Assembly (NCBI GenBank): GCA_947492375.1
Contig: CANLMI010000002.1
Span: 1,117,529 to 1,181,528, forward strand
Length of the DNA: 64,000 nt
Direction of reading: 5' to 3'
DNA from: an uncultured Kordiimonas sp.
GTDB taxonomy: Bacteria; Pseudomonadota; Alphaproteobacteria; Sphingomonadales; Kordiimonadaceae
Of this stretch, positions 33,329-64,000 are shown piece by piece. Both the position numbers and the translations under genes were made by a program. Under the pieces are notes generated by a model. The model had not been told where the DNA came from, did no database searches, and saw only the letters and a list, made by a program, of their open reading frames with translations. Position 1 is the stretch's first letter; every line of letters starts with the position of its first letter.

Positions 33329-33330
33329 TC

Positions 33331-33370: not shown

Positions 33371-33553
33371 GTCTCTGATTCAGAAATAATTTCTTTGTAT
33401 TTCCAACTGTCCGCATACTGGGTTTTCACTGTATGGTGTTACCTATGTGTTACCTTTTTGGAATCGGACAGTCGAGTCAGAGCGTGTTATTTGAAAAAGG
33501 TAACACATCTTCCACAAGGCGTTGATTTATCAGCGAAATTGGAGGATTGCAAA

Positions 33554-34843: not shown

Positions 34844-34849
34844 ACATAA

Positions 34850-34882
34850 AAAACCTCCACCTATTGGGTGCGGAGGTTTCGT
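34850..34882 (-). terminator. Terminator between integrase and transfer genes
   Basis: Stem AACCTCC-ACC/GGT-GGAGGTT with loop; on the minus strand followed by TTTTTT, on the plus strand by TTTCGTT. It lies between the ends of the convergent integrase and DUF736 genes, so it can serve both, mainly the minus-strand operon. Confidence 0.8.
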
Positions 34883-34906
34883 TATTGGAGTGGACGATAT
34901 TTTAAG

Positions 34907-35218: not shown

Positions 35219-35245
35219 AGGTCTGCTCCTGTTACTGCTGACAAG

Positions 35246-35473
35246 TTAGGATGATTGCGCTGCTTTGACGGCTTTTTTGAACCCGCTATCGGATGCGATG
35301 AAGGCTCGCAGCATGAATGGAATGAGAGCCGGAACGCTCGCTTTTTCGCCGTAGGTTTGTTCATAGATTGCAGCGTAGGTTTTCAGGTCATTGTCTAAGT
35401 CCGGCTCTACGCTGATTGTATGTTTGACAGGTGTGGTGTCGGGCAGTTTCCCGATTTTGAGAGATTGGGTCAT
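35246..35473 (-). CDS. DUF2274 protein
   Basis: 75 aa: LKIGKLPDTTPVKHTISVEP, DLDNDLKTYAAIYEQTYGEK, ALIPFMLRAFIASDSGFKKA. This matches DUF2274, which nearly always follows trbI in ICE and plasmid trb operons. The short ribbon-helix-helix-like pattern suggests DNA binding. Four bases separate it from trbI. Confidence 0.88.
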   Translation of the reverse strand: MTQSLKIGKLPDTTPVKHTISVEPDLDNDLKTYAAIYEQTYGEKASVPALIPFMLRAFIASDSGFKKAVKAAQSS

Positions 35474-35476
35474 GGG

Positions 35477-37701: not shown

Positions 37702-37703
37702 GA

Positions 37704-38393: not shown

Positions 38394-38397
38394 AAAA

Positions 38398-39732
38398 TTA
38401 CTCCTCATCTTGTTTCAGTCGCGGGCCGTCTCCTGAACCGCCTCTGTCTCCGTCGCGTAGAGTGGAGGTGGCGGCGAGGCCGGCATCGCGTTGCAATTGG
38501 TTGCGGGTGGCTTTCTTGGCCCAATCGGGCTGTCCATTAGTCGGGGTAGCGGAGGACGAACTGGAATCACCGCCGGAGATTTTGCCGCCGGTTGCGCTTA
38601 TCGCCCCGCGACTTCCAGACTTGAACGATTGTTTGACGGGATCGGTCACTTTGGCAGCGGCGGATTTAGCGGCATTGGCGACCGATCCTGCTCCAGCCTT
38701 TGCAACCGCGCTGACACCGGACGCCGCGCCCTTGATGCCGCCTTGACCGGATGCAGCTTTACCCATTGAGTAAGACATGGCTGCGCCGCCTGCCATTGAA
38801 GACCCGGCCTTCACCGCACCAACCGCACCGCGCGATGCCGCCGAAGCAGCCGCACCGCCAACGCTTGCTGCTGCGAAGCCTGCCGCACCTGCGCCTACAG
38901 CGGTTCCAACTGCCGCGCCTGCACCCAATTGCGGCGCTCCCGAAACGAGGCCCGTTGCTATAGCTGGGCCGAAGATTCCAAGCGCAAGAAGTGCCAATGA
39001 TGCTAGTATGACAGCGGCGGCGTCCTCCAGTGTAATATTACCCGGTGTGAAGCCAGAAGTGACATTGCCAAAGAGCGTCGATCCGATGCCGACAATTATG
39101 GCCAACACCATAAGTTTGATGCCAGAAGAAATGACGTTGCCCAACACCCTTTCAGCAAGGAACGACGTTTTGTTCCAGAGTGCGAATGGCACGAGGACAA
39201 ATCCAGCTAGTGTCGTCAACTTGAACTCAATGATCGTAACGAAAATCTGTATGGCGAGGAAAAAGAAAGCGAAAAGCGTAATCAGCCAAGCGAGTGCAAG
39301 GATCGCAATGGTGACGATGTTGACGAAGAATGCGACGGGACCGGACAAATCGGCAATTTCATCCAGCAATGGATGCGCGGCGGTAAACCCCGTGCTAGCG
39401 ACAAAGCCAGGACGCAAAAGATCGGCTGCCGTGATCGTACCGCCTGTGGCGTTCAATCCAAGCTGGGCGAAACTTTCAAATATAATATTCGCCAGCAATG
39501 GAAACTGGTTCAGGAGCAGAGCGAAGAAACCAATATACAAAACCTTCTTCAAAAACCCGACCACGATATTGTCGAGATTTCCAAAAGCCCAAAACAGTCC
39601 TGCAAGCACAATGTCGATGGTAACAAGCGCGGTTGTCAGGAATGCAATATCAGGAGCAAGCAGCCCAAAGCCACTGTCGATATAGGTCGAGAATGTTTGG
39701 AGGAATTGATCTATAATACCGAGGTCATTCAT
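38398..39732 (-). CDS. trbL: P-type conjugative transfer protein TrbL (VirB6-like)
   Basis: 444 aa. Several membrane helices (APDIAFLTTALVTIDIVLAG; LYIGFFALLLNQFPLLANII; FFVNIVTIAILALAWLITLF; GIKLMVLAIIVGIGSTLFGN), then a Gly/Ala-rich tail from about 270 (GAAGFAAASVGGAAASAASR), as in other TrbL proteins. Forms part of the inner-membrane channel. The tail is low complexity and shows spurious frames on the opposite strand. Confidence 0.94.
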   Translation of the reverse strand: MNDLGIIDQFLQTFSTYIDSGFGLLAPDIAFLTTALVTIDIVLAGLFWAFGNLDNIVVGFLKKVLYIGFFALLLNQFPLLANIIFESFAQLGLNATGGTITAADLLRPGFVASTGFTAAHPLLDEIADLSGPVAFFVNIVTIAILALAWLITLFAFFFLAIQIFVTIIEFKLTTLAGFVLVPFALWNKTSFLAERVLGNVISSGIKLMVLAIIVGIGSTLFGNVTSGFTPGNITLEDAAAVILASLALLALGIFGPAIATGLVSGAPQLGAGAAVGTAVGAGAAGFAAASVGGAAASAASRGAVGAVKAGSSMAGGAAMSYSMGKAASGQGGIKGAASGVSAVAKAGAGSVANAAKSAAAKVTDPVKQSFKSGSRGAISATGGKISGGDSSSSSATPTNGQPDWAKKATRNQLQRDAGLAATSTLRDGDRGGSGDGPRLKQDEE

Positions 39733-39753
39733 GGCCGCTCGCTCCTGAAAGTC

Positions 39754-40476
39754 TTAGTTGCCGGAATAGGCAGTTGAACCGCCGACAAAGCGCGAATGTC
39801 GAACTTTGGCGGCCCGTTCGATCTGCAAGCGACGGGCGCGTTCAAGCGTCTCCGCCCGGAATTGCGATGCGGTCAATTCCTGCAGTTGCATGGTTTGTTT
39901 TGCAGAGAGCGCCAAAATCTGATTGCCCGCTTGGGCCGCCGCGAGATTGCCTCCTGCACCTTGGCTTTCGCGCATTAGAGTGTCGAGCACGGAAGTATCT
40001 GCGCGCACCGTTTCCGCAATTTTGGATTGCATCAACAGGGCGTCATGCAGAGAAGAACGCGACGTCTTCCAGAGGCTTTCAGCATTTTGAATGATTTGCT
40101 GACTTGAGAGGTTCGCGTAATCTTCCGGGTACTTTGTTTTGAAGACTTGATCGGCTTTCTGCACCTCAAACGACATGGCCTTCGCCTGGTCCGTCAAAGT
40201 CGATATTTCTTGCAACAGCCTGTTCAAATGCTGGCGGGAGTCAAAATCCAGCTTGGTCAAATCCTTGACCTGATTGACGATCATGTCAGCTTCATTTTGA
40301 AGCTGCTGAATCTGATTGTTGACGGTTTGCAGGGTTCGCGCAGCAGTCAGCAAGTTTTGCCCGTAATTGGTCGGGTCAAATACCACCCCACCAAATCCAA
40401 AGAAGGCGTGGGCAGGTTGAAGGGGTGCGACCCCCATTAAAACGATCATGAGTATTGAAATTAGTCTTCGGCGCAT
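39754..40476 (-). CDS. trbJ: Conjugal transfer protein TrbJ (VirB5-like)
   Basis: 240 aa with a cleavable signal peptide (LISILMIVLMGVAPLQPAHA, cut before FFGFGG). Then the TrbJ helical domain: VFDPTNYGQNLLTAARTLQT, VNNQIQQLQNEADMIVNQVK, and LSAKQTMQLQELTASQFRAE. Minor pilus component and surface adhesion. Overlaps trbE by 16 bp. Confidence 0.94.
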   Translation of the reverse strand: MRRRLISILMIVLMGVAPLQPAHAFFGFGGVVFDPTNYGQNLLTAARTLQTVNNQIQQLQNEADMIVNQVKDLTKLDFDSRQHLNRLLQEISTLTDQAKAMSFEVQKADQVFKTKYPEDYANLSSQQIIQNAESLWKTSRSSLHDALLMQSKIAETVRADTSVLDTLMRESQGAGGNLAAAQAGNQILALSAKQTMQLQELTASQFRAETLERARRLQIERAAKVRHSRFVGGSTAYSGN

Positions 40477-42914
40477 AGCGCATCTCCTTTCTCTTGTTGG
40501 GTGTCTTCAGAAATGAGGTCAGCGGCCCAATTCAGTCCGCGTGCTTCCAGCCAGCGTTCGGCAAACGCGCCGTTCGGATTCGTTGACGCAATCTCGGCGA
40601 TGGCGTTCAGATCGTCTTTGGAAGATGCACCGCAAAACGCGAGCGCGACTGGTCCCAAGGACAGATCGAATAGGCGGTTGCCGTTTCGGGACTGGAAGTA
40701 GTAATCGCGCTTTGGTGTTGATTGCGCGATGATCTCGACCTGCCGGTCATTAAGACCAAACCCTGTATAGGCTTTGCGCTGTTGCGGCTCCAAGGCTCGG
40801 TTATTGGGCAGGAAAATACGCGACGGGCACGATTCAATGATTGCAGGAGCAATTTTGCTTGTGGCGATGTCACTGAGAGATTGCGTAGCGAAGACCACAG
40901 AGACGTTCTTCTTCCGCAAGACCTTGAGCCATTCGCGGATACGGTCTGCAAACAATGGATCGTCAAGAAAGACCCAAGCTTCATCAAGAATGAGTAGGCT
41001 TGGCTTTCCGTCAAACCGATCCTCCAAACGATGAAAGAGATAGGAGAGAACGGGCGGCACTAGAGACTTCTGGTGCATCAACTCTTCCATCTCAAAGCAC
41101 TGCCAATCATTCGATCCAATGCTTTCGTGGTCAGCATCCAGCAGTGATCCATGCGCGCCTTTTAGCGTGTATGGTTCGATGGCTTGTCGAAGACGATTTG
41201 ATTGCAACAAGGCACTCAACCCCGTCATGGTGCGTTCAACCTGCGGGGCGCTTGCGAGCGAAGTTAGCGCCGTCCAAATCGCCTCTTTGATGTCAGGTTC
41301 AATGGTCAGCCCTTCATGGGCAAGAAGGCCGCACAGCCATTCAAGTGCCCAAGCCCGTTCGGTTTCAGAGTCAATTCGAGCGAGCGGCTGGAAGCACAAT
41401 CCGTGATCGCCTCCCAATTGGAAGTGCTCTCCGCCAACGCCCAAAGTCGCAGCAGTGGCCGATCCGCCCTTGTCGAATATGAAAATCTGCGCATCCGTAT
41501 AGCGTCGGAACTGCAAGGCCAGCATCGAGAGCAAAACAGATTTGCCCGCGCCCGTTGGCCCGACAATCAAAGTATGTCCGACATCACCTTGATGGAGCAC
41601 TACACGGAATGGCGTTTGCGAGGCGGTCGTCGCATAAAGAAGCGGTGGCCCTTGAAGGTGCTTGTTCTGAGCTGGACCCGCCCATACAGCCGATAGCGGC
41701 ATCATGTGCGCGAGATTGAGCGTGTGGACGATGGGTTGGCGAACATTTGCGTAGGCGTGACCGGGAATCGTCCCGAGCCAGGCATCAATCGCGTTGACTG
41801 TTTCCTTGATGGTCACATAGCCCCGACCATTCACAATCCGCTCAACTTCGCGGATCATATCATCTGCAACGGTCGCAGATGGCGACTGAACGACAATGGC
41901 TGTGGTCAGATACCCAAATCCAACGTGATCTGCGCCAAGGGTTTGCAGGGCTGCGTCCGCATCTGCGGCTTTATTGTCCGCATCGGTATCAACCAAAGGC
42001 GAGGCTTCATTCGTCATCATCTCGCGCAGAAGCGACATGATGGATTTTCTTTTGGCGAACCATTGCCGCCGATAACGGGTCAAGACTTTGGTGGCCGCAA
42101 GCTTGTCCATAGGTAGGTAGCGCGTCACCCAACGGTACGAAAAGCCGAGATTGTTGAGATCATCCAAGAGACCGGGTTCGGTCATGGGTGGAAAACCCTG
42201 AATGGTGACGACGCGCAAATGCTGGTCATCCAAAACGGGTTCAAGGCCCCCTATTAAAGACGCACCGCCTAGAACGGCATCCAGATAGCATGGGGATTGT
42301 GGCGCTTTGACAGGATGACGACGACCCGACACACAGTGTTGGAGATACGTCAAAGTTTGTTCGTCGGTCAGAAACCTCGCATCTGGAAAGATGGTTTCAA
42401 AAAGAGAAAGGGCTTTGTCCGTCTCTTGCAGGAACCGGGCAAGATAGTCGCCCGCTCCGATTTGCTCTTCATCATCTGGGCGTTCAATTAGGGCCTCTTC
42501 AATTTTCCCAACGGAGTCTGCGGGAGGCAGATATGAAAAGGTGAGATAAAAACGGCTTTCAAAGAGTAAGTCACTTGCATGTCTGCCTTCGAAAAGTGAG
42601 CGGCGTTCTTCATCAATGATCCATGCAACCTTATCGCGCCATTCGCTTGTCGGATACTCAAGTGCTGGGGCGCGGGACGCCTCAAAGTAAATCGCCCAAG
42701 ATGAGCCAAAACGTTTGAGGGCATTGTTGATCCGGGCACAAATCGAGACCAGCTCTTCCCCTGTGGAACTGTCCAAATCTGGACCGCGAAACTCAGCGGT
42801 GCGTTGAAAACTTCCATCCTTATTCAAAACTACGCCGGGCGCGATGAGGCAGGCCCACGGCAGATAGTCGGCAAGGCACTGTGGAGCAGCTTGATATTCA
42901 GAGAGATTCATCAT
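40461..42914 (-). CDS. trbE: Conjugal transfer ATPase TrbE (VirB4-like)
   Basis: 817 aa. CagE/TrbE N-terminal domain (LIAPGVVLNKDGSFQRTAEF; RYRRQWFAKRKSIMSLLREM). ATPase domain with Walker A TLIVGPTGAGKSVLLSMLAL near residue 455 and Walker B PSLLILDEAWVFLDDPLF near 645, then VVFATQSLSDIATSKIAPAI. Powers pilus assembly and DNA transfer. Full length. Confidence 0.96.
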   Translation of the reverse strand: MMNLSEYQAAPQCLADYLPWACLIAPGVVLNKDGSFQRTAEFRGPDLDSSTGEELVSICARINNALKRFGSSWAIYFEASRAPALEYPTSEWRDKVAWIIDEERRSLFEGRHASDLLFESRFYLTFSYLPPADSVGKIEEALIERPDDEEQIGAGDYLARFLQETDKALSLFETIFPDARFLTDEQTLTYLQHCVSGRRHPVKAPQSPCYLDAVLGGASLIGGLEPVLDDQHLRVVTIQGFPPMTEPGLLDDLNNLGFSYRWVTRYLPMDKLAATKVLTRYRRQWFAKRKSIMSLLREMMTNEASPLVDTDADNKAADADAALQTLGADHVGFGYLTTAIVVQSPSATVADDMIREVERIVNGRGYVTIKETVNAIDAWLGTIPGHAYANVRQPIVHTLNLAHMMPLSAVWAGPAQNKHLQGPPLLYATTASQTPFRVVLHQGDVGHTLIVGPTGAGKSVLLSMLALQFRRYTDAQIFIFDKGGSATAATLGVGGEHFQLGGDHGLCFQPLARIDSETERAWALEWLCGLLAHEGLTIEPDIKEAIWTALTSLASAPQVERTMTGLSALLQSNRLRQAIEPYTLKGAHGSLLDADHESIGSNDWQCFEMEELMHQKSLVPPVLSYLFHRLEDRFDGKPSLLILDEAWVFLDDPLFADRIREWLKVLRKKNVSVVFATQSLSDIATSKIAPAIIESCPSRIFLPNNRALEPQQRKAYTGFGLNDRQVEIIAQSTPKRDYYFQSRNGNRLFDLSLGPVALAFCGASSKDDLNAIAEIASTNPNGAFAERWLEARGLNWAADLISEDTQQEKGDALCAED

Positions 42915-43177
42915 GCGAGATACCCCTTGTGACGAACATGGCGGATCAGGACTTCGACGAATTGGTAATCGCGCTTGGCTGCAAAAACGCAGGCGCTATG
43001 CGCGACCACCCAATAGAGGATGCCGAAGTGCCAAAGGTGGAGACCAAGCCCTATGGCAGCGGCAATGGTTCCATTCATGATGGTTGCGGCACGAGGTGCA
43101 CCACCCATGAGAATAGGTTCGGTCAAGGAGCGATGGACCGGGATGGAGAAGCCGCTAATGTCTCTTTGGAGGCTCAT
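42911..43177 (-). CDS. trbD: Conjugal transfer protein TrbD (VirB3-like)
   Basis: 88 aa. RDISGFSIPVHRSLTEPILM is the VirB3/TrbD signature, followed by a membrane hairpin (GGAPRAATIMNGTIAAAIGL; WHFGILYWVVAHSACVFAAK) and DYQFVEVLIRHVRHKGYL. Small inner-membrane protein that works with TrbE. Overlaps trbE (ATGA) and trbC (one base). Confidence 0.94.
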   Translation of the reverse strand: MSLQRDISGFSIPVHRSLTEPILMGGAPRAATIMNGTIAAAIGLGLHLWHFGILYWVVAHSACVFAAKRDYQFVEVLIRHVRHKGYLA

Positions 43178-43506
43178 TAGATGACGGCCCCGCCGCCGAA
43201 GGAAAAGAAGGACAGGAAGAAGCTGGTGGCGGTGAACGCAATCGACAGCCCAAAGACGATCTTCAACAGATTGCGCATGCCGCTGCCCATATCGCCGAAG
43301 GCAATGCCAAGCCCGGTAACAACGATGGCAATAACGCCGATCCCTTTTGCAACATCACCCTCAATGGACGTGACGATTTGCTGGATTGGCCCCTCCCAGG
43401 GCATTCCCGAACCCGCTGCGAAAGCTTGTCCTGAGAACAGGAGAAACACTAAAAACGTAAACGCGATGTAGTGAAGAGATCGGATGGTATCGTAGGTGCG
43501 AGACAT
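43177..43506 (-). CDS. trbC: Conjugal transfer pilin TrbC (VirB2-like)
   Basis: 109 aa. Signal peptide (IAFTFLVFLLFSGQAFA), mature N-terminus GSGMPWEGPIQQIVTSIEGD, then two hydrophobic helices (GIGVIAIVVTGLGIAFG; LKIVFGLSIAFTATSFFLSF) ending FGGGAVI. This is the pilin type of VirB2/TrbC. Major subunit of the conjugative pilus. Confidence 0.94.
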   Translation of the reverse strand: MSRTYDTIRSLHYIAFTFLVFLLFSGQAFAAGSGMPWEGPIQQIVTSIEGDVAKGIGVIAIVVTGLGIAFGDMGSGMRNLLKIVFGLSIAFTATSFFLSFFSFGGGAVI

Positions 43507-43508
43507 AG

Positions 43509-44516
43509 CTAGGCTCCGTTGTTTGATGATGATTGAAGAGAGAGAATGTTTGTTGGGGCGTCAGCGACATCGCATGTGGCGTAGCCTTGCCCGTTGTCCT
43601 CGATGCCGGTGACATGTCGGATGGACTCAATGCGCCGCGCATTCCCGCGCCCTGAAATGAAGACCACGAGGTCAATGGCTTGTGCGATCAGTTTGCGCGG
43701 TATGTTGGCCGCGACTTCTCCGACCAATTGTTCAAGGCGATAAAGTCCGCCAATGGCGTCATTAGCGTGAATGGTGCTGATCCCGCCCGGATGCCCCGTA
43801 TTCCATGCCTTCAGCATATCTAAGGCTTCTGGACCCCGCACTTCGCCAACCACGATCCGGTCTGGTCGCAGCCGCAAGGTCGATTTCACAAGATCGGCCA
43901 TCGAAACATGCGGAAGGCGCGTGCGCAGGGCGACTTGATCTGGCGTCGCACATTGCAATTCTCGGGTGTCTTCGATGATAAGAACGCGGTCGCCGGTTTC
44001 TGCAACCTCATTCAACAAGGCATTGGCTAGTGTTGTTTTGCCTGAGCCTGTGCCACCAACGATTAGGACATTCTTTCGCTCGCGCACGGCGGTTTGAAGG
44101 TGATGAAGTTGAACCGCCGAAAGCGTTTTCGCGCTCACATAATCATCGAGCGAGAAAATCTTCGCGGCGGCTTTGCGGATTGAGAAGCAAGGCGCGGTGG
44201 TCACAGGAGGCAGGACGCCCTCGAACCGCTCGCCTGCGCCGGGTAGTTCTGCGCTCACAATTGGTGTTGTTGCTGTAACCTCAGCTCCAATATGACTGGC
44301 AACCAACCGTATGATCCGTTCGCCCTTTTCGGGAGACAAACGGGTCTCAGTGCATTGACGACCTGTTCCGTGGCGGTCGAGCCAAAGCCATCCATCGGGA
44401 TTGACCATAATCTCCACAACAGCAGGATCGGCTAGAGCGGTTTGAATGGTCTCGCCCATTGCCGTTTTGAGCATAGATTGGGTGCGCAGAAGAGATTCTT
44501 GATTACGCTGTGGCAT
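43509..44516 (-). CDS. trbB: Conjugal transfer ATPase TrbB (VirB11-like)
   Basis: 335 aa from ATG 44514-44516, with GGAGG six bases upstream. Walker A VLIVGGTGSGKTTLANALLN; Asp box ILIIEDTRELQC; Walker B-like IVVGEVRGPEALDMLKAWNT; His box TGHPGGISTIHANDAIGGLY. All four motifs of the secretion ATPase superfamily are intact. Hexameric ATPase for pilus assembly and substrate transfer. Overlaps the CopG-like gene end. Confidence 0.96.
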   Translation of the reverse strand: MPQRNQESLLRTQSMLKTAMGETIQTALADPAVVEIMVNPDGWLWLDRHGTGRQCTETRLSPEKGERIIRLVASHIGAEVTATTPIVSAELPGAGERFEGVLPPVTTAPCFSIRKAAAKIFSLDDYVSAKTLSAVQLHHLQTAVRERKNVLIVGGTGSGKTTLANALLNEVAETGDRVLIIEDTRELQCATPDQVALRTRLPHVSMADLVKSTLRLRPDRIVVGEVRGPEALDMLKAWNTGHPGGISTIHANDAIGGLYRLEQLVGEVAANIPRKLIAQAIDLVVFISGRGNARRIESIRHVTGIEDNGQGYATCDVADAPTNILSLQSSSNNGA

Positions 44517-45012
44517 CGGCATCCTCCGTTTTTGCAGGACGCTCCGGCCTTGACTCATGCAGGCGAGCTAACTCATCTTCGGTGAAAAATTTAGAGTCAT
44601 CCGCAAGCTGATCTTCCATCCTGTTGAACAGAATGGGTTCGCCGTCTTGGAGTATGGATTGCAAGCTGTTCAAATAGGTTTCGAAGCGCGCATGACCTTC
44701 GGCTTGTGCGGCTTTCCGGTCTGCTTCCGACACCTGCGGAATGACGGTAAGAAAATAACGAACGAATAAGGCAAACGCTTCTGCTGCAATGATCTGCTTA
44801 CGCTCTAGCCCTTCGATCTGACGAGACAGCCGGTCGAGACGCCGGATGAGCGCAGCATCGCGTTTATCATCGTGCTCATGGCTGAAGAACACAGCCAATG
44901 CTTGATTTACGATGTCGGATTCCGTGCGTCCCGGTTTGAGTTTCGCGGCCTGTAGGTGAGCGAATACCGAGGGCTTCAAATAAGGGTGTATGCGGGGGTT
45001 TGATGACGCCAT
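44503..45012 (-). CDS. CopG-like ribbon-helix-helix protein between traG and trbB
   Basis: 169 aa. N-terminus RIHPYLKPSVFAHLQAAKLK, PGRTESDIVNQALAVFFSHE is a ribbon-helix-helix (CopG) fold; the rest is helical (RDAALIRRLDRLSRQIEGLE; AFALFVRYFLTVIP). Found at this position in many trb operons of alphaproteobacterial elements. Probably binds DNA and regulates the operon or acts as relaxosome accessory. Three bases separate it from traG. Confidence 0.85.
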   Translation of the reverse strand: MASSNPRIHPYLKPSVFAHLQAAKLKPGRTESDIVNQALAVFFSHEHDDKRDAALIRRLDRLSRQIEGLERKQIIAAEAFALFVRYFLTVIPQVSEADRKAAQAEGHARFETYLNSLQSILQDGEPILFNRMEDQLADDSKFFTEDELARLHESRPERPAKTEDADATA

Positions 45013-45014
45013 GC

Positions 45015-47042
45015 TTAGAAATCCAACAGGTCAAAATCGGGCGTGCCGCGATCCAGCCCATAAGTTTTGTTTGCGATGGTGGCGCGGCGTGCGAGACCGG
45101 CTGCGCGTTTCGCAGCAACTTCGTCAGCGTCATCTGGCTCGATGGTTTGATCGTGCTCGGCAGGTTTGTTTGTTTCTTGCTGTGGAGTGTCGATTTCGCG
45201 CTTGAGGTCTTTGCCGCCATCATTCCCGCTGGCAGTGGCTTCATCCAATTTGCCAAACAAGCGATCATCGACGGCTCGGGTATCTTGACCCCAATCATCC
45301 AGGCGGGAGGGAGGACGGTCGCCGTATGGATGATCGGGGCCTGTCAGCGCGGGTGGGGATAAAACGCGGCTGACAAAATTTTGGTCCTCAAAGTAGCGCA
45401 GCTTCTTTGCGCGGACTGGCGAAGAACCAGAGACAAGAATGATCTCATCATCTGGCGGGAGTTGCATGATCTCACCGGGGGTTAGGAGTTGTCGGGCGGA
45501 CTCTTGACGCGAGACCATGACGTGACCGAGCCACGGAGCCAGCCTGTGGCCTGCATAGTTACGCATCGCGCGCATCTCGGTCATTGATCCGAGGGCATCG
45601 GAAATACGTTTGGCTGTTCGTTCGTCATTGGTCGCAAAGGCGACGCGCACATGACAGTTATCGAGAATGGAATTGTTCGGACCGTAGGCTTTCTCAATCT
45701 GATTGAGCGATTGCGCAATCAAGAAGGCCCGCAACCCATACCCCGCCATGAAAGCGAGCGCGCTTTCAAAAAAGTCGAGCCGTCCAAGTGCTGGAAACTC
45801 GTCAAGCATCAGCAAGACGCGGCGGCGCTTCTCTGTGGCAGCGTCATCATCCAGCTTTTCTGTTAGGCGACGGCCAATCTGATTGAGGATTAGTCGGACA
45901 AGCGGCTTGGTGCGTGATATGTCAGAGGGCGGAACAACCAGATAAAGTGAGATTGGCTTTTCGCCTTCGATCAGGTCGGCAATACGCCAATCGCAGGAAG
46001 AGGTCACCTCGGCCACCGTTGGATCACGGTAAAGCCCCAAGAAACTCATCGCCGTTGACAGGACGCCTGAGCGCTCATTTTCAGACTTGTTCAAGAGTTC
46101 ACGCGCTGCTTGCGCGACAACTGGATGAGTTTGGGGATCGTCCCCTTTGGGGCCGAGGTGGTTGGTACTCATCATCACCCATAAAGTGCGCTCAAATGAG
46201 CGGCTGGGATCAGACAAGAAACTGGCGACGCGGGCGAGCGTCTTTTCTTTCTCTGCATAGAGAACGTGAAGGATCGCGCCGACTAGAAGAGCATGTCCGG
46301 TTTTTTCCCAATGGTTTCGGCGTTCCAATGCGCCTTCGGGATCGACCAGAATGTCAGCAATGTTCTGGACATCGCGGACTTCGTTACGGCCTTTGCGTAC
46401 CTCCAGAAGCGGATTGTATTTTGCGCTGAGAGGATCGGTTGGATTGAATAGAAGGCAATGAGAGAAGGCCGAGCGCCAGCCTGCCGTCAATTGCCAGTTC
46501 TCACCTTTGATGTCGTGAATGACAGCGCTTTCACCCCAGCTCAAAAGCGTTGGCACGACAAGACCTACACCCTTGCCCGAACGTGTGGGCGCAAATGCCA
46601 TAATATGTTCTGGTCCAGCATGGCGAATGTAAGTGTTTTTCAGCTTGCCGAGGAACACACCTGTTTTGGTGAGCAAGCCAGCGCGTTTCATCGTGCGCTT
46701 TGTGGCCCACTCCGACGACCCAAAGGTTGTTAGCTTTTTGGCTCGGCGTCCACGCCAAACAGACAGCAAAGCCGCGATAACAATGCTAGCGAAGGTGGCG
46801 CCAACAACAATCCTACCGCCTGTTCTGAAAATCTCTGGCGCATAAGCGTGAAAGGCATACCACCATTCAAAGAGACGCCACGGATAGTAGACTGGTGTAT
46901 CGAGGACATAGAACCATGCCGTTCCAAGATACGGGTCATAGCTGAACTGCGCGGCCACCCATTGCGTCGCAAGCCAGATGCCACCCGCGATAGTGGCAAG
47001 CACTGAAAGTATGTGACCGTATAATATGCCCTGTGGCGACAT
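45015..47042 (-). CDS. traG: Type IV coupling protein TraG (VirD4-like)
   Basis: 675 aa. N-terminal membrane segments (ILSVLATIAGGIWLATQWVA; VVGATFASIVIAALLSVW), Walker A MAFAPTRSGKGVGLVVPTLL, Walker B VLLMLDEFPALGRLDFFESA, and IAQSLNQIEKAYGPNNSILD. Binds the relaxase-DNA complex and links it to the T4SS. C-terminal 120 residues are charged and disordered. It is the first gene of the traG-CopG-trbB..I block; no promoter is obvious upstream. Confidence 0.95.
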   Translation of the reverse strand: MSPQGILYGHILSVLATIAGGIWLATQWVAAQFSYDPYLGTAWFYVLDTPVYYPWRLFEWWYAFHAYAPEIFRTGGRIVVGATFASIVIAALLSVWRGRRAKKLTTFGSSEWATKRTMKRAGLLTKTGVFLGKLKNTYIRHAGPEHIMAFAPTRSGKGVGLVVPTLLSWGESAVIHDIKGENWQLTAGWRSAFSHCLLFNPTDPLSAKYNPLLEVRKGRNEVRDVQNIADILVDPEGALERRNHWEKTGHALLVGAILHVLYAEKEKTLARVASFLSDPSRSFERTLWVMMSTNHLGPKGDDPQTHPVVAQAARELLNKSENERSGVLSTAMSFLGLYRDPTVAEVTSSCDWRIADLIEGEKPISLYLVVPPSDISRTKPLVRLILNQIGRRLTEKLDDDAATEKRRRVLLMLDEFPALGRLDFFESALAFMAGYGLRAFLIAQSLNQIEKAYGPNNSILDNCHVRVAFATNDERTAKRISDALGSMTEMRAMRNYAGHRLAPWLGHVMVSRQESARQLLTPGEIMQLPPDDEIILVSGSSPVRAKKLRYFEDQNFVSRVLSPPALTGPDHPYGDRPPSRLDDWGQDTRAVDDRLFGKLDEATASGNDGGKDLKREIDTPQQETNKPAEHDQTIEPDDADEVAAKRAAGLARRATIANKTYGLDRGTPDFDLLDF

Positions 47043-56547: not shown

Positions 56548-56720
56548 CGGACGGTCACGTCCTGCATAAGAAAGACGTAAGCCCGCCTCGCAGCGTCTTC
56601 ACTTTCAAAAAGCTGGTAACAGCCAGTTATGAGGATTGCCCATCGGCCTATGTCTGAGGGGGCAAGGCTGGTGCGCTCGACTTCTTCCGCGTCTATTTGG
56701 AATGGTTGGGAAACACTCAT
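56544..56720 (-). CDS. 58-aa small ICE protein with ATGA coupling at both ends
   Basis: Frame MSVSQPFQIDAEEVERTSLA to AYVFLMQDVTVR. Its ATG overlaps the ArdC stop and its TGA overlaps the ATG of the next gene, so it is translationally coupled on both sides. Contains PSDIGRWAILITGCYQLFES. The coupling supports a real gene. Function unknown. Confidence 0.7.
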   Translation of the reverse strand: MSVSQPFQIDAEEVERTSLAPSDIGRWAILITGCYQLFESEDAARRAYVFLMQDVTVR

Positions 56721-57679
56721 GCCGCAACCTCCATGATGGGGGCTGCGGGTGTTGTGTCGGTTTCAAAAGCCAGAATGAAATCGGCGGCTTTGCTGGCGAG
56801 GGATGCAGCTTTGAAGATTGCCCGCTTGTCATTACGCAGCACGGTCAGCCAATCTGCGATATAGTCCGCATGGCGTACGGTTGGGATAATGTTTTGGGCA
56901 GCGCAAACAAAGGCGCTCGCCATTTCTGCGACAAGTTCCTCACGGGCATAATCCTTTGTGCCTTTGCTGGTGGTCAGGCTCCGGTCAAGGCGTGATGTGT
57001 GTCCCGTCCAGTGGCCAAGCTCGTGAAAGCAGGTTCGGTAATAATTTATCTGGTCGCGGAAAGCCGGTTGCGGCGGCACCTGAATAAAATCTTCGCTTGG
57101 CACGAAAAAAGCCCTGTCGCCGCCAATCCTAAAATCGGCTCCGGTAGCTTGAATAAGCTGTTCAGCGTGGGGGATGATTTCCCGTTCCGGCAAAGGTTGC
57201 GGGTTAGCTAAAAATTCATCGGGCAAGCCTTCGCACTGGTCGGCGTTAAACACGGTGTAGCGTTTCAAAAAGCCCACGCGCTGCGGGTCGTCTCCTGTTT
57301 GCTGCGCCTTTTCTGCCTCGGCTTTGGGTATGAATGTATCGGCGTAACAAATGGCGGTGCCGCGTTCACCTTTTCTGACGCATCCGCCTAGCGACAAGGC
57401 TTGTTTGAAGGTGAGCCAGTGTTGGGTAGTTCTTGCGGTTTCGATAGCCGCGCCCCACAGCAACAAGATGTTGATGCCGGAATAGGTGTTGCCGGTGGCG
57501 GCATTTTTCGGGAGTCCCATCGGGGTCTTGATATGGTCGCGTCCCCAAGGCTGGACCCAAGGCACTGCGCCAGCCTCAAGCTGTGCAATAATCTTGTCTG
57601 TAACGTCTTGGTATAGGTCGCGGCGCGGTGTGCTGCTGCATTTGCCTCTTGCGCTTTGGTCGCGGTTCTTGGTGGCCAT
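56717..57679 (-). CDS. ardC: ArdC-like antirestriction protein
   Basis: 320 aa. N-terminal ssDNA-binding DUF1738 region (RDLYQDVTDKIIAQLEAGAV; PWVQPWGRDHIKTPMGLPKN; NTYSGINILLLWGAAIETAR). C-terminal zincin-like domain with CFHELGHWTGHTSRLDR (HExGHxxG-like) and YAREELVAEMASAFVCAAQN, which supplies the third ligand Glu. Protects incoming DNA from restriction. Start MATKNRDQSARG; several spurious frames overlap it. First gene of the ardC-small genes-parB operon. Confidence 0.92.
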   Translation of the reverse strand: MATKNRDQSARGKCSSTPRRDLYQDVTDKIIAQLEAGAVPWVQPWGRDHIKTPMGLPKNAATGNTYSGINILLLWGAAIETARTTQHWLTFKQALSLGGCVRKGERGTAICYADTFIPKAEAEKAQQTGDDPQRVGFLKRYTVFNADQCEGLPDEFLANPQPLPEREIIPHAEQLIQATGADFRIGGDRAFFVPSEDFIQVPPQPAFRDQINYYRTCFHELGHWTGHTSRLDRSLTTSKGTKDYAREELVAEMASAFVCAAQNIIPTVRHADYIADWLTVLRNDKRAIFKAASLASKAADFILAFETDTTPAAPIMEVAA

Positions 57680-58320: not shown

Positions 58321-58503
58321 ATGACAACCGACATCATGACGATCCGCGAAGTCGCTGAGTATCTCAAGATCGCGGAGAAGACAGCTTATCGCCTTGCGGC
58401 AGAAGGCGAATTGCCAGGGTTCAAAGTGGGCGGAAGCTGGCGTTTCCGGCAGGCGGACATTGATAAATGGATAGACGAAGGAGCGAAAAAACATGACGAC
58501 TGA
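58321..58503 (+). CDS. Excisionase-type HTH protein, first gene of the defence-like operon
   Basis: 60 aa: MTIREVAEYLKIAEKTAYRL, AAEGELPGFKVGGSWRFRQA, DIDKWI. Complete HTH_17 winged-helix domain with little else. Ribosome site AGAGGTG lies five bases upstream. It overlaps the helicase gene by 11 bp. Such small HTH proteins precede helicase/methyltransferase systems, probably as controllers, and also act as excisionases; here the context argues for the first. Confidence 0.85.
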   Translation: MTTDIMTIREVAEYLKIAEKTAYRLAAEGELPGFKVGGSWRFRQADIDKWIDEGAKKHDD

Positions 58504-61354
58504 GTATCACGCAAAACTGTTTGCGCATGAGCTGAGCCGTCGGCATTCCGTTGGCGATTCAGAAAAACTCGCCAGCACGCTTCTTGATGCTCAAGTGGAT
58601 TTGAACCCGCATCAGGTAGAGGCCGCACTTTTCGCGTTCAAGTCGCCTTTTTCAAAGGGAGCGATCCTCGCCGATGAAGTTGGCTTGGGCAAAACGATTG
58701 AAGCTGGCCTGCTGCTTTCGCAAAAATGGATAGAAGGCAAGCGCCGGATCATTATCATTGGCCCGGCGAACCTGCGGAAGCAATGGTCACAAGAGATAGA
58801 GGAAAAATTCTATCTTCCAACCATGATCCTTGAAGCCAAAAACTATAATCGCATGGTCAAAGATGGGGTTCGCAACCCGTTTGACCAGAACGTCATTGTA
58901 ATTTGCTCGTTTCAATTTGCGGCTCGGCACGCAGAAGATTTGATGATAACGCCGTGGGATCTGGCCGTTATCGACGAAGCGCACAGGCTTAGAAATGTCT
59001 ATCGAACCGATAACAAGATCGGCAAAGCGCTGAAATCCGCTTTATCCAATGCGCCGAAGGTTTTACTGACCGCAACCCCTCTACAAAACTCGCTGATGGA
59101 GCTTTATGGCCTTGTCAGCATCATTGATGATTACGCTTTCGGAGATGCAAAGAGCTTCCGCGCACAGTATGCACGCATTACGGGCGAACATCAGTTCACC
59201 CAGCTTCAGGAGCGTTTGAAACCAATTTGTCACCGCACACTGCGGCGGCAGGTTTTGGAATATATCCGCTACACCAACCGGATTCCGATCACGCAGGAAT
59301 TTGTTCCGACAGAGGAAGAACAGGTTCTTTACGATATGGTGTCGGATTATCTCCAGCGTCCGTCGCTGAATGCGCTGCCAAGCAGCCAACGGACACTTAT
59401 GACGCTGATAATGCGCAAGCTATTGGCGTCATCGTCATTTGCCATTGCCGGCGCGCTCGATAGTCTCGCCCGAAAACTGGAACGCAGTCTGAAAGAGGAT
59501 CGGGAGCTTAAAAGGAATCTCGAAGAAGCCGAAGACGTTGAGATCACCGCCGATTTTGACAGTTTCGAGGAGGAAGCAGAAGAATGGGTAGATGATGAGG
59601 ATGACCCTGAACTTCTCAACGAAGAAGACATTGTTGCGATTGAACAGGAAATCGACGATCTGCGCTCGTTTCGTGATCTTGCCGTCTCCATCTCCGAGAA
59701 CGCCAAAGGTCTCGCGCTGTTGGAAGCTCTGAAAGCGGGCTTTGAAAAGGCGGAAGAACTGGAAGCGCCGCGCAAAGCTATCATCTTTACAGAATCCCGC
59801 CGGACACAGGACTATTTGCAAACGCTGCTTTCCAATAATGGGTTTGAAGGCAAGCTGGTTCTGTTCAATGGCTCAAACTCGGATGCGCAATCCAAGGCGA
59901 TTTATCAGCAATGGGTCCATGAGAACAAAAACACCGATAAGGTCACAGGTTCTCGCACGGCGGATATGCGCGCTGCCCTTGTCGATCACTTCCGTAATAA
60001 AGCCGAGATCATGATTGCGACGGAAGCGGCTGCCGAAGGCATCAATCTTCAATTCTGTTCGATTGTCGTGAACTATGATCTGCCATGGAACCCGCAACGG
60101 ATTGAACAGCGTATTGGCCGCTGCCACCGTTATGGTCAGCTACATGATGTTGTGGTGATTAACTTCCTCAACAAAAACAACGCTGCCGATCAGCGGGTGT
60201 ATGAATTGCTGTCGGAAAAATTCCAGTTGTTTTCCGGTGTGTTCGGCGCAAGCGACGAAGTGCTTGGCGCAGTTGAGTCCGGCGTGGAGTTTGAGAAGCG
60301 GATTGTTGGCATTTATCAAACTTGCCGAAGCTCCGAAGAGATTGAATCCGCTTTCGAGCGCTTGCAGGAGGAAATGGCCGCCCGCATTGATGAAACCATG
60401 CAGGACACGCGCAAGAAACTCTTGGAGAATTTTGACGCAGAGGTTCACGACCGGCTCAAGGTCAATCTTGATGAGGCGACCGAATATGTGAACCGCTATG
60501 AACGTATGCTGTGGACCGTCACCAAGCATGAATTGAAAGCCCATGCCGATTTTGACGACGGGTATCTCAGCTTCCTTCTGAAAAAGCCTGTGGGTGGTGT
60601 GGACTCGCCAACCGGGGCCTATCACCTCACGAAGAAAGGGCTGGAAGGACATCGTTACCGCCTTGGTCATCCGCTGGCGCAATTCGCGGTTGGGCAGGCA
60701 GGCGCGCGCAAACTAAATGGCGCTCATATCACTTTTGATTATTCAGCATGGCCACAAACGGCGGCCAATATTGATCCGCTGGTCGGAAAGTCAGGCACGC
60801 TGACCGTGCATAAGCTGTCCATTACCGGCGTCGATGCGCAGGACCATATCATCTATTCCGGCTTTGCTGATGATGGCACGAAGGTGAAACCGCGCGTGGC
60901 GGCAAGACTATTTGAGTTGCCGGTGAAATTGCATGACGCCAGTGCCACCCACCCCGATGAAAAGCTGCTAGACGGCATCAAGGCGCGCAAGCAGACAATC
61001 CTTGAAGACCTGGCGGCAACGCAAAGCGAATGGTTTGATGATGAAATGGAAAAGCTCGACAACTGGGCGCGGGACAAACGCGCAGGGTTAAAAGCGGACC
61101 TCAAAGATTATGATGACCAGATCAAAGACCTGAAAAAGCAGGTGCGCCAGACCGGTAATCTGCCGGATAAGCTGGCGCTGCAAAAACAGGTCCGCACTCT
61201 GGAACAAAAACGCGAAGAAGCATGGCGCGCCTATGATGACGCGGCCAAAGATATTGAAAAACAAAAGGACACATTTCTGGACGTGGTGGAAAGCCGGATG
61301 CAACAGGATGTGTCAGAAGAACATTTATTCACCATCCGGTGGACGATTGAATAA
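58493..61354 (+). CDS. SNF2-like helicase (HepA/RapA type)
   Basis: 953 aa. ATPase motifs: I DEVGLGKTIEAGLL (61-74), II VIDEAHRLRN (159-168), III LLTATPLQNS (191-200), V AAEGINL (513-519), VI QRIEQRIGRCHRYGQ (535-549). Between the two RecA-like lobes lies an acidic insert (343-386, ADFDSFEEEAEEWVDDEDD). C-terminal 350 residues contain coiled coil (LDNWARDKRAGLKADLKDYD; LQKQVRTLEQKREEAWRAYD). Uses ATP to move on DNA or remodel protein-DNA complexes; no nuclease motif seen. Coupled with the HTH gene and 11 bp before the methyltransferase. Confidence 0.9.
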   Translation: MTTEYHAKLFAHELSRRHSVGDSEKLASTLLDAQVDLNPHQVEAALFAFKSPFSKGAILADEVGLGKTIEAGLLLSQKWIEGKRRIIIIGPANLRKQWSQEIEEKFYLPTMILEAKNYNRMVKDGVRNPFDQNVIVICSFQFAARHAEDLMITPWDLAVIDEAHRLRNVYRTDNKIGKALKSALSNAPKVLLTATPLQNSLMELYGLVSIIDDYAFGDAKSFRAQYARITGEHQFTQLQERLKPICHRTLRRQVLEYIRYTNRIPITQEFVPTEEEQVLYDMVSDYLQRPSLNALPSSQRTLMTLIMRKLLASSSFAIAGALDSLARKLERSLKEDRELKRNLEEAEDVEITADFDSFEEEAEEWVDDEDDPELLNEEDIVAIEQEIDDLRSFRDLAVSISENAKGLALLEALKAGFEKAEELEAPRKAIIFTESRRTQDYLQTLLSNNGFEGKLVLFNGSNSDAQSKAIYQQWVHENKNTDKVTGSRTADMRAALVDHFRNKAEIMIATEAAAEGINLQFCSIVVNYDLPWNPQRIEQRIGRCHRYGQLHDVVVINFLNKNNAADQRVYELLSEKFQLFSGVFGASDEVLGAVESGVEFEKRIVGIYQTCRSSEEIESAFERLQEEMAARIDETMQDTRKKLLENFDAEVHDRLKVNLDEATEYVNRYERMLWTVTKHELKAHADFDDGYLSFLLKKPVGGVDSPTGAYHLTKKGLEGHRYRLGHPLAQFAVGQAGARKLNGAHITFDYSAWPQTAANIDPLVGKSGTLTVHKLSITGVDAQDHIIYSGFADDGTKVKPRVAARLFELPVKLHDASATHPDEKLLDGIKARKQTILEDLAATQSEWFDDEMEKLDNWARDKRAGLKADLKDYDDQIKDLKKQVRQTGNLPDKLALQKQVRTLEQKREEAWRAYDDAAKDIEKQKDTFLDVVESRMQQDVSEEHLFTIRWTIE

Positions 61355-61365
61355 GGGGGCCGCTG

Positions 61366-63414
61366 ATGAGCGCTGATAAGAAAATGACGATAGAGGAAGC
61401 CGCTGAAAAAGGTCTCTTGAGTGCGGACGTGGCGCAGGAAAAGCGCGATGCGCTCAAGCAATTGTTCCCCGAAGTGTTCACCGAAGACACAATCGACTTT
61501 GAACAGCTTCGCCGTGTCATGGGTGACTGGGTGGAGCCGGGCAAGGAACGCTATGGCCTGAACTGGCCGGGCAAGGCCGAGTGTATGAAGGTCATTCAAG
61601 CGCCGAGTATCGCCACACTGAAACCTGCGCGTGACGAAAGCGTCAATTTCTATGAGACGGAAAACCTCTTTATCGAAGGCGATAATCTGGAAGTCCTGAA
61701 ACTTCTCCAGAAAGCCTATTTCGGCAAGATCAAGATGATCTATATCGACCCGCCCTATAATACGGGTAAGGAATTTATCTACCCGGACAAATATCAGGAA
61801 AACCTCGACACCTATCTCGCCTATACGGAGCAGGTTGATGATGAAGGCAAGAAATTTGCGACCAATACAGATTCAAGTGGGCGCTTTCATTCCAACTGGC
61901 TCAATATGATGTTTCCACGTCTTTATTTAGCTAGAAATTTACTACGTGAAGATGGCGTAATTTTTATTTCTATTGGCAATGACGAATTTGAAAATTTAGT
62001 GCGGCTTTGCCACTTAATATTCGGCGAAGAAAATTTTATCGAATGCCTAACTTGGAACAAAAGAGTTCCAAAAAATGATAAAGGCATAGGCAATATTCAT
62101 GAATACATATTGCTTTACGTAAAAGATGCCTCGCTAAAGCCAGAATTTAATATGCGTAAAGATGGCTTAGATGATGTCTACGAATTAGTCGGAAAATTAA
62201 AACGAGATCGAACAAGCATTCCAGAAGCAGAGCTTCAAATAAAAAGGCTATACAAAAAGAATGACTATGACCGTGGTATAACCCTCTATAACTCTCTTGA
62301 TTTTGAGTATCGCTTATGGGGGAAGATTAACATGAGTTGGCCAAATGCAAATACATTTGGTCCAGACTACGAGGTCTTACACCCGAGAACTAATAAGCCT
62401 GTAAAAATGCCCGATCGGGGTTGGCGTTGGAAAGAAGAAACATTCAATGAAGCAGCGAACAGAGTAGATGGCGTTTACCAAAATGTAATAGAACTCCATG
62501 ACGGAAGTTTTATGTGCGGAAAAATCTGGTTTTCAAAAGATGAACAAACACAGCCAAGCTCAATAACGTACTTTGACGATGTGAACAATTTTTTGTTGCG
62601 GTCTATAATTTCCACGAAAAGCGATGGGGGTGTAGAGGTAGAAAACTTATTCGAGGGGAAAAACTTCTTTTCATATCCAAAACCAACTCACTTAATTAAA
62701 ACACTCCTATCATCTCAAGAAGCAAACGACGAAGATATATTTTTAGATTTTTTTGCTGGATCAGCAACCACGGCGCACGCGCTTATGGATATGTCCGCAG
62801 AAGACGATGTGAGGCGCAAATATATTATGGTCCAACTTCCTGAGCATGTGGAGGAAGGCAGCGAAGCTCACAAAAATGGATATAAAACTGTATCCGATTT
62901 ATCGAAGGAACGCATGCGTCGTGCGGCCAACAAAATCGCAAATCAAGGAAATGGGAAGTTGAATCTGGATGGTTCAGCTAAACAAGATCTAGGTTTCAAA
63001 GTTTTCAAACTCGACCAATCCAATTTCAACCTATGGGACGGAGACGCAGAAAAGACCGAAGACCTCGCCAAGCAACTCGAACTCCATGTCGATCATATCG
63101 ACCAGGAAAGCAGCCCAGAAGACATTCTCTATGAATTGCTTTTGAAAGCCGGCTTTGAGCTGACCACAAAAGTCGAGAAAAAGACAATGGCGGGCAAGGA
63201 TGTGTATGCCGTGTCAGACGGCGCCATGCTGATCTGCCTCGATAAAGAGATCACGCCGGAACTGATTGACGCGCTGGCGGACGCCAACCCGCTTCAAGTC
63301 ATCTGCCTTGATGAAGGCTTCAAAGGTAATGACCAACTCAAGACCAATGCCGTTCAGACCTTCAAATCACGCGCCAAGGAAGACGAAGAACCCATCGTCT
63401 TCCGCACGGTTTAG
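61366..63414 (+). CDS. Type III Mod-like DNA methyltransferase with AT-rich central part
   Basis: 682 aa; GGGGG before the ATG. Motif IV MIYIDPPYNTG (DPPY at 128-131), motif I FLDFFAGSATTAHALM (459-474), so motif order is IV then I, as in beta-class type III Mod enzymes (m6A). C-terminal region (FKVFKLDQSNFNLWDGDAEK; ADANPLQVICLDEGFKGN) matches Mod proteins. Between residues 183 and about 545 base composition falls to clearly AT-rich, while both ends are GC-rich like the neighbours. This middle part includes the expected target-recognition domain. Methylates host DNA at an unknown site. Confidence 0.92.
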   Translation: MSADKKMTIEEAAEKGLLSADVAQEKRDALKQLFPEVFTEDTIDFEQLRRVMGDWVEPGKERYGLNWPGKAECMKVIQAPSIATLKPARDESVNFYETENLFIEGDNLEVLKLLQKAYFGKIKMIYIDPPYNTGKEFIYPDKYQENLDTYLAYTEQVDDEGKKFATNTDSSGRFHSNWLNMMFPRLYLARNLLREDGVIFISIGNDEFENLVRLCHLIFGEENFIECLTWNKRVPKNDKGIGNIHEYILLYVKDASLKPEFNMRKDGLDDVYELVGKLKRDRTSIPEAELQIKRLYKKNDYDRGITLYNSLDFEYRLWGKINMSWPNANTFGPDYEVLHPRTNKPVKMPDRGWRWKEETFNEAANRVDGVYQNVIELHDGSFMCGKIWFSKDEQTQPSSITYFDDVNNFLLRSIISTKSDGGVEVENLFEGKNFFSYPKPTHLIKTLLSSQEANDEDIFLDFFAGSATTAHALMDMSAEDDVRRKYIMVQLPEHVEEGSEAHKNGYKTVSDLSKERMRRAANKIANQGNGKLNLDGSAKQDLGFKVFKLDQSNFNLWDGDAEKTEDLAKQLELHVDHIDQESSPEDILYELLLKAGFELTTKVEKKTMAGKDVYAVSDGAMLICLDKEITPELIDALADANPLQVICLDEGFKGNDQLKTNAVQTFKSRAKEDEEPIVFRTV

Positions 63415-63427
63415 GGGGAGAAAAACA

Positions 63428-64000
63428 ATGAAAATGAGCAAAAAGCCCTTGCCGATTTCAACCATTTGCGCGTGGAAAGCTAGGATTGATCCGACACCAG
63501 ATTACCAGCGGCCACCAGCGTGGTCGAGAAAACAGAAACAGCTTTTGATAGATTCAATTCTTCGGGAATACGACATTCCAAAGATGTATTGGCGCGCAGT
63601 CGATAGAGATGATGGAATTAAATTTGAAGTGATTGACGGTCAGCAGCGCCTTCGAACTATTTGGGAATATCAATCAGGCGGCTTTGCCCTCGCAAAGAAC
63701 ATCGATCCTGTAAATGGTATCAGTTGCGGCGGGTTGAAATATGCGGACTTGGATTTGGATATTAGCACGATTTTTGATGCTTATCCGGTCGATGTTGTAA
63801 TCGTCGATGATGCCATTCAAACGGATGAGGAAGATGAAGTCCGAGATATGTTTCTCCGCCTTCAGAATGGCACCACTTTGAAGGCGCAAGAGAAACGAAA
63901 TGCAATGCCCGGACAAATGCGGGACTTCATTAAGGACATTGCTGAACACAAGTTTTTTGAAAACTGTAAGTTCTCCAATTCTCGATTTGCTTTCGATCAC
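63428..64000 (+). CDS. DUF262 domain protein, C-terminus off the window
   Basis: 191 codons visible, open at the right edge; start ATG 63428 with GGGGGAG nine bases upstream and 13 bp after the methyltransferase stop. Contains the DUF262 (ParB/sulfiredoxin-like) core: DPTPDYQRPPAWSRKQKQLL, IPKMYWRAV, FEVIDGQQRLRTIWEYQSGG and LRLQNGTTLKAQEKRNAMPG, with the key IDGQQR motif intact. DUF262 proteins, for example GmrSD, hydrolyse NTPs and can cleave modified DNA. Likely an effector or sensor of this operon. Confidence 0.85.
   Translation, partial: MKMSKKPLPISTICAWKARIDPTPDYQRPPAWSRKQKQLLIDSILREYDIPKMYWRAVDRDDGIKFEVIDGQQRLRTIWEYQSGGFALAKNIDPVNGISCGGLKYADLDLDISTIFDAYPVDVVIVDDAIQTDEEDEVRDMFLRLQNGTTLKAQEKRNAMPGQMRDFIKDIAEHKFFENCKFSNSRFAFDH

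Follow-up and report, generated by a model that had tools for sequence, protein, structure and literature searches.

The window, a 64,000-nucleotide stretch of a contig from an uncultured Kordiimonas sp., contains the first part of an operon with the order SNF2 helicase, Mod, DUF262/HNH, Res and AAA, the last two genes of which lie beyond the window in the sequence L002. The first gene, part of the operon backbone, is an open reading frame for a SNF2-family helicase of 953 aa (58493-61354, plus strand; SNF2-rel_dom and Helicase_C). It is followed by a single intact open reading frame for a mosaic Type III Mod N6-adenine methyltransferase of 682 aa (61366-63414, plus strand) and by the start of a DUF262/GmrSD_N-HNH gene (63428-64000, plus strand; Pfam GmrSD_N and HNH) that runs beyond the window. 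Res has 970 aa (L002 8225-11137; ResIII, DEAD and RE_endonuc; 1005 bits against PADLOC REase_III), and the last gene encodes an AAA protein of 877 aa (L002 11134-13767; AAA_13; 642 bits against PADLOC PDC-S06), for which the other loci compared yielded no homologue covering 80% or more of its length. Mod scored 664 bits against PADLOC MTase_III, matched Pfam PF01555 and carries the DPPY and FxG-type motifs of a beta-class N6-adenine methyltransferase on either side of a target-recognition domain (TRD), while Res, in the same operon, combines helicase domains with a C-terminal nuclease domain. By its domain content, this is a Type III restriction-modification operon with Mod as its modification gene. 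We also considered DISARM, in which DrmD is accompanied by drmMI, drmA, drmB and drmC, and rejected it: the best NCBIfam match of the helicase, DrmD_b at 713 bits, falls under its cut-off of 950 (the best PADLOC match is also DrmD), and among the operon genes Mod, DUF262/HNH, Res and AAA gave no Drm match.

A region of about 37 kb from window position 33395 to L002 13896 resembles an integrated conjugative element, with the operon at its right-hand end. From their translations, we take the ORF at 33395-34843 to be tyrosine integrase-like and the ORFs at 35477-47042 to be conjugation or coupling-protein-like genes, and a tRNA-Arg (L002 13820-13896) follows the operon. A search for an exact attachment repeat shared by the tRNA-Arg region and window positions 24000-36000 gave none of more than 14 bases. 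About 0.8 kb upstream of the restriction operon, and divergent from it, the minus strand encodes a protein with ArdC-N and MPTase-PolyVal domains (56717-57679), so that an antirestriction gene of the ArdC type adjoins a restriction system in the window.

Mod itself can be divided into three modules. The N-terminal end module (61366-61833, plus strand; GC at third codon positions, GC3, about 0.6) is delimited by a GC3 change point and by identity to the relatives L120 and L101, and the C-terminal end module (63004-63414, plus strand; GC3 about 0.62) by a change point and by identity regained to the relatives of the ends; both are operon-linked. Between composition change points lies a central module (61834-63003, plus strand; GC3 0.33-0.35) consisting of a catalytic flank, the target-recognition region and a second catalytic flank. 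The target-recognition region, approximately codons 256-415 (62131-62610, plus strand), was assigned from a bimodal distribution of identity over codons 301-400 to a type that we call TRD-A, a name coined here for the specificity type of the window Mod. Catalytic motif IV, DPPYNT (codons 128-133; 61747-61764, plus strand), which is present in 104 of 114 aligned Mods, lies in the retained GC-rich N-terminal end, and motif I for SAM binding, DFFAGSATT (codons 461-469; 62746-62772, plus strand), was recognized by its position and its variants in the family. An earlier note on this DNA had described both catalytic motifs as retained; both are indeed intact, but only motif IV is in the GC-rich part, motif I being inside the exchanged AT-rich block. 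Like the EcoP15I Mod (PDB 4zcf), which matches at E 2.5e-67 and 231 bits over residues 23-529 only, the window Mod belongs to the same family, has the motif order IV - TRD - I and is partnered by a Type III Res; the alignment between the two is weak through the TRD. A phase-variable mod (phasevarion) was rejected, there being no frame-shifting simple-sequence repeat tract in 61300-63500: the longest homopolymer is T7, a single trinucleotide is repeated (TGA x3) and no tetra- to hexanucleotide unit occurs three or more times in a row. A viral source of Mod was likewise rejected, since viral_contigs contained a single distant relative and no phage match extended over more than 18% of the gene.

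The AT-rich centre between GC-rich ends, in an intact frame, was the central observation of the earlier note and is borne out by codon-position GC, change points and shuffling. In 300-base windows, GC falls from 0.51-0.54 to 0.35-0.41 between about 61850 and 62900, and the change-point scan locates the same fall in GC3. GC at codon positions 1/2/3 is 0.55/0.32/0.62 in codons 1-180, 0.49/0.33/0.35 in codons 181-544 and 0.60/0.28/0.63 in codons 545-682; since GC3 shifts and GC2 hardly does, the change is mainly synonymous. Amino-acid composition is ruled out as the source, given that GC2 barely changes and that the GC3 expected from amino-acid content with the codon use of the helicase is flat across the three parts (0.55/0.57/0.55). 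Maximum-likelihood change points place the GC3 patch at codons 157-546 (61834-63003), with 2-log-unit intervals of 61834-61861 on the left and 62994-63048 on the right, a log-likelihood gain of 37.5 and a scan statistic of 7.9, which none of 2000 synonymous shuffles reached (highest value 5.1). The same scan detected nothing in the helicase, Res and DUF262 genes and gave a marginal signal in the AAA gene, where 17 of 300 shuffles were equally high.

In GC3, the ends of Mod resemble the helicase (0.57) and Res (0.54), as expected if they look like flanking genes, and are unlike the adjoining downstream DUF262 gene (0.44) or the AAA gene (0.41), so that this claim of the earlier note holds in part. 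Ten large ORFs between 33370 and 50000 have GC3 values of 0.49-0.66. Outside the element, chromosomal GC3 averages 0.36-0.37 to the right (0.36 in L003) and ranges over 0.38-0.46 per ORF to the left (left of 31000). The Mod centre, at 0.33-0.35, is therefore nearer to the host than the Mod ends are, and the GC-rich ends group with the element. What was retained is the backbone of the operon, and this backbone itself differs in composition from the chromosome.

Relatives of Mod were drawn from genome_contigs (70 loci), 98 related genomes, 385 genomes of the class, 398 of the phylum and five plasmid records, the latter being 5 of 663 matching records. After removal of 10 sequences under 560 aa and 12 duplicates, the 135 hits left 113 distinct relatives, which were aligned with the window gene (114 rows). 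Identity to the window Mod over codons 301-400 is bimodal, with 55 of 113 relatives at 59-82% (TRD-A), 58 at 11-38% and none between; because two peptide patterns from within the TRD helped to find the 70 genome_contigs loci, the proportion 55/113 is not a frequency. Among the Mods from genome searches made without TRD patterns, TRD-A was found in 0 of 42 counted and in one more (L106) that had been merged with L088 as its duplicate. TRD-A occurs in records titled to ten named phyla, many of them metagenome bins. With regard to paired genes, L034 (a Chryseobacterium gleum MAG contig) has two Mods whose DNA is 79-93% identical over codons 51-225 and 526-675, whose centres are unrelated and one of which carries TRD-A; the two may form a two-specificity array. 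Two Mod matches lie about 2 kb apart in G497 and on different contigs in G608.

Four relatives, L120 (G263), L101 (a Rhizobium sp. NLR16a plasmid), L124 (G731) and L121 (G180), match the window Mod at both ends and fall to 0-46% identity per 25 codons over codons 226-450, which is the pattern of similar ends and dissimilar centre that the earlier note had predicted for an alignment of related Mods. Specifically, identity over codons 1-90/91-160 is 66/89% to L120 and 62/86% to L101, and over codons 546-610/611-682 it is 66/75% and 60/72%, respectively. Conversely, L061, L057, L052 and L103 match well in the centre and only distantly at the ends. The remainder of the operon follows the ends: L183, L185 and L101 share 75/72/73% identity in the helicase, 68/67/66% in Res and 67-83% in the Mod ends with the window, their helicase and Res being the closest among nine loci compared, and a TRD query found no match in these three loci except 26 residues in L101. 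L101 additionally has a DUF262 gene 75% identical to that of the window and the same gene order, while L184 has a Res at 59% and no helicase found in its stretch. In plasmids, a query with the N-terminal end matches 540 records, compared to 14 for a query with codons 251-400. Sequence comparison thus assigns the ends of Mod to the operon backbone and its centre to a different, widely shared module, with frame and motifs intact.

Trees of the separate parts lead to the same division. In the tree of the ends (114 Mods), the window gene forms a clade with L120, L101, L124 and L121 (SH-aLRT 98), and TRD-A is found in none of these four. The TRD-A label requires 19 changes on this tree, at least 10 of which are forced by well-supported (starred) branches. 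For the same 51 Mods, hand-chosen from the 114 and analysed, as throughout, with quick trees, the label changes 14 times on the tree of the ends versus once (support 98) on a tree of the catalytic flanks of the centre (codons 176-250 and 425-535, TRD excluded), whose internal resolution is low (8 of 47 branches starred). It follows from this difference that the TRD and the catalytic flanks travel together and that the moving unit is larger than the TRD. In AU tests, grouping the window gene with its end-relatives was rejected for the centre flanks at p 0.02, a modest value in a set with long rows, and a single TRD-A clade was rejected for the ends at p 5.6e-6.

A recombination scan of four end-parents by five centre-parents was significant for all 20 pairs (0/2000 permutations each), with identity blocks starting at codons 163-214 and ending at codons 437-556. 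These blocks lie within the GC3 patch (157-546) or at most 10 codons past its right edge. Many of them fall short of the patch by tens of codons, chiefly at the right-hand side, where sequences are conserved and less informative. Five further Mod pairs have similar ends and unrelated centres, and in four of them identity is regained within codons 501-576: sharply at codon 551 in L045/L144, between codons 526 and 576 in L103/L141 and L041/L151, and between codons 501 and 526 in L034_3/L034_2. The right edge is not clear in L037/L081. The ends of L103/L141 and L045/L144 are mostly at about 80-95% DNA identity.

The window Mod has orthologous ends and a non-orthologous centre, and a recombinational exchange of its putative specificity-bearing part is strongly supported by evidence independent of base composition. 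The exchange of a TRD by recombination, as proposed in the earlier note, is upheld by the trees, the identity profiles and the scan; the proposed unit needs revision, as it is larger than the TRD and includes the catalytic flanks and motif I. It could be argued instead that there was no exchange, the centre being under a different constraint and its likeness to other centres reflecting convergence or ancient retention. That the conserved flanks of the centre can still be aligned among the Mods compared would agree with this, but the bimodal TRD identity without intermediates, the conflict between the trees of ends and centre and the crossovers in identity make it very improbable. Neither a near-identical donor nor an unswapped copy was found among the relatives compared, and the closest centres, at 82% over codons 301-400, reach at most 64% over the catalytic flanks. 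With no such donor, and with the closest centres near saturation at four-fold sites, the exchange carries no date. L031 (Brocadia) shares both ends and centre with the window Mod at 42-80%, which suggests that TRD-A may be old in the wider group defined by the ends and lost in the four sister rows rather than gained here.

We hypothesize that homologous recombination occurred in the conserved, alignable stretches flanking the TRD, somewhere in codons 157-214 and 437-556, and that the Mod centre was thereby replaced by the centre of a different Mod lineage (TRD-A). On this model, motif IV and both terminal ends would have stayed with the operon, while the TRD and motif I would have entered as one piece with their own catalytic flanks. 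In Type III systems, which methylate one strand of an asymmetric site and cleave between inverted sites, it is Mod that recognizes the target, for its own methylation as well as for cleavage by Res. Going by this mode of action, such an exchange would provide a new target word for methylation and cleavage in one step while the Mod-Res assembly is kept, and we infer that a change of the recognized DNA motif followed it.

The earlier note had taken the AT-rich centre as a sign of exchange, but a low-GC3 centre is found in 107 of 113 relatives, whatever their TRD. Counting the window gene as well, 108 of 114 Mods (53/56 TRD-A and 55/58 others) have a centre lower in GC3 than the ends, as do 105 of 114 at four-fold sites and 39 of the 42 Mods from genome searches without TRD patterns. 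Since nearly every relative has the dip, a GC dip in the methyltransferase centre alone cannot call a swap; the composition argument is correct as an observation and weak as evidence of a swap. The note had also held that a shared AT-rich centre with uniform divergence over the whole gene would speak against exchange; relatives do share the AT-rich centre, but their divergence is not uniform. Along the gene, the family profile starts positive, is near zero from about codon 136 to 204, has its minimum at about 205-440 and turns positive again from 545, with limits much like those of the exchange junctions. Relative to the Res gene at the same locus, the mean GC3 difference is +0.013 for Mod ends and -0.129 for centres, and centres are lower in 57 of 63 cases versus 25 of 63 for ends. 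A general property of operon genes is not supported, as the partner genes are without the valley (Res 28/52, mean difference -0.005; helicase 5/13, mean +0.006; these controls comprised 13 helicase rows, two of DUF262 and one of AAA). Rare-codon pausing is disfavoured as a cause, given that the centre is below the ends even in Mods with end GC3 of 0.25-0.35 (20 of 20), in which AT-ending codons are abundant throughout. At end GC3 below 0.25 it is lower in 6 of 10.

A parallel to the Mod centres exists in HsdS, the specificity subunit of Type I systems, which is a separate protein with two TRDs and no catalytic lobe moved along. Its GC3 is below that of the neighbours in 26 of 27 usable loci (of 29, L154-L182). 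CcrM-type genes, which we take to be vertically inherited, are below their neighbours in only 6 of 27 loci (3 of 30 were without a usable reading), which disfavours a general property of beta-class methyltransferases. A CcrM-type gene was found in 87 of 115 genomes of the class, including the window's own, none at the curated cut-off of the family, and among 14 control genomes a match occurred in Caulobacter only; on this ground the host was taken to be probably an alphaproteobacterium. This difference between HsdS and CcrM-type genes ties low GC to exchangeable specificity modules more than to the methyltransferase fold.

How the valley arose can be explained in two ways. The AT-rich centre may be a scar of import from an AT-rich donor, its composition not yet having drifted to match the remainder of the gene, or it may reflect a synonymous AT bias maintained on the exchangeable centre of Type III Mods, at the mRNA, codon or DNA level, independently of single swaps. 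For an imported scar speak the exchange itself, as supported by trees and scan, the GC-poor HsdS genes set beside CcrM-type genes, and the modA12 DRD, which has 28% GC between flanks of 40% (PMC3311624). Moreover, centre GC3 follows that of the locus less steeply than end GC3 does (slopes 0.59 and 0.91 in the 65 of 114 Mods with flanking genes from which locus GC3 was estimable, values that may include antisense ORFs in GC-rich loci). Import has more difficulty with the breadth of the valley: over the Mods, mean GC3 is 0.35 in centres versus 0.51 in ends, and symmetric shuffling among these genes cannot produce such a difference. A maintained bias would account for this breadth, including at four-fold sites and in the Mods found without TRD patterns, as well as for the absence of the valley from Res and helicase and for the dip in genes in which AT codons are not rare. 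It fits less well with the near loss of the effect in the Mods of lowest end GC3 and with the Mods L101 and L102, which lie on plasmids of GC-rich loci and show little or no valley, and repeated import from unsampled AT-rich donors could mimic it.

Comparison of orthologous genes bears on both explanations. TRD-A centres compared with one another are nearly saturated at four-fold sites, with a median excess over expectation of 0.02 across 1540 pairs and +0.15 for the best partner of the window gene. Orthologous pairs from GC-rich loci keep an AT-rich centre in spite of turnover at most of these sites, which stands against a scar; in L053/L063, GC4 is 0.37/0.41 in the centre and 0.82/0.85 in the ends. 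Models were fitted to 13 hand-chosen pairs out of 37 with related ends and a related centre, several of which share members and are thus not independent. Raw identities of centre and ends are not comparable, as their compositions differ, but fitted lengths are, and in six of the seven most GC-rich fitted pairs the centre is longer than the ends. If the centre drifts towards the composition of the ends, the model has to place its root GC4 at 0.00-0.16 in 12 of 13 pairs. Of the 13, nine are fitted better by a stationary AT-biased centre, L053/L063 by 8.4 log units and the others by less than 4, and four are fitted slightly better by drift. The pair fits favour a maintained bias over drift, and repeated AT-rich import is also compatible with them. 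We regard the maintained bias as a real possibility at a little under even odds, and the imported scar as a tentative explanation that is rather more doubtful than not.

Taken together, the preferred reading is that of a Type III operon on an apparent conjugative element, in which homologous recombination replaced the centre of Mod with that of the TRD-A lineage and probably changed the DNA word, the AT-rich centre being a recurrent property of the module; we give this reading a probability of roughly 0.88. The AT-rich codon use recurs in the exchangeable module across the family, where it may be maintained, and does not date the swap in the window Mod.

Type III TRDs are reported to move between non-orthologous mod genes of Helicobacter pylori through recombination at conserved motifs (Furuta and Kobayashi 2012, as cited in PMC3983042), and in comparison to that account the window Mod is of another subfamily and its moving unit includes the catalytic flanks and motif I. 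In modA of Neisseria and Haemophilus, the central DRD is replaced en bloc between conserved 5' and 3' ends (Gawthorne 2012, PMC3311624), and the GC of the modA12 DRD relative to both sides was read in that paper as evidence of transfer. Like modA as described there, the window Mod has a GC-poor centre exchanged between conserved ends; unlike the phase-variable modA, it is without such a repeat tract, and low GC in this position is common to nearly all relatives examined. The specificity of Type I HsdS is reported to be changed by moving TRD-coding segments (PMC3077401, PMC3983042). The Mod centre is similarly an exchanged specificity segment that is GC-poor relative to its neighbours, though unlike in HsdS the exchanged unit carries catalytic flanks. 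A family-wide synonymous valley in Mods was not described in the open-licence literature searched, nor in the available text of the review PMC12707154, which contains neither 'GC content' nor 'AT-rich', and the accessible part of PMC5700931 holds nothing on DRD composition. The exchange of Type III recognition domains is already published, and the family-wide valley is the less expected part of these results.

We speculate, at odds clearly short of even, that a position-bound, maintained synonymous AT bias coincides with the exchangeable module, in which case the low GC of recognition domains would be partly intrinsic rather than just a mark of transfer, and the GC-poor HsdS genes may hint at a general rule. 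The cause of the dip, whether AT-rich donors or selection on synonymous sites, is now a testable question. More generally, a single intragenic exchange can re-specify a whole restriction system, and in the window Mod both the unit of such an exchange and its approximate junctions are mapped.
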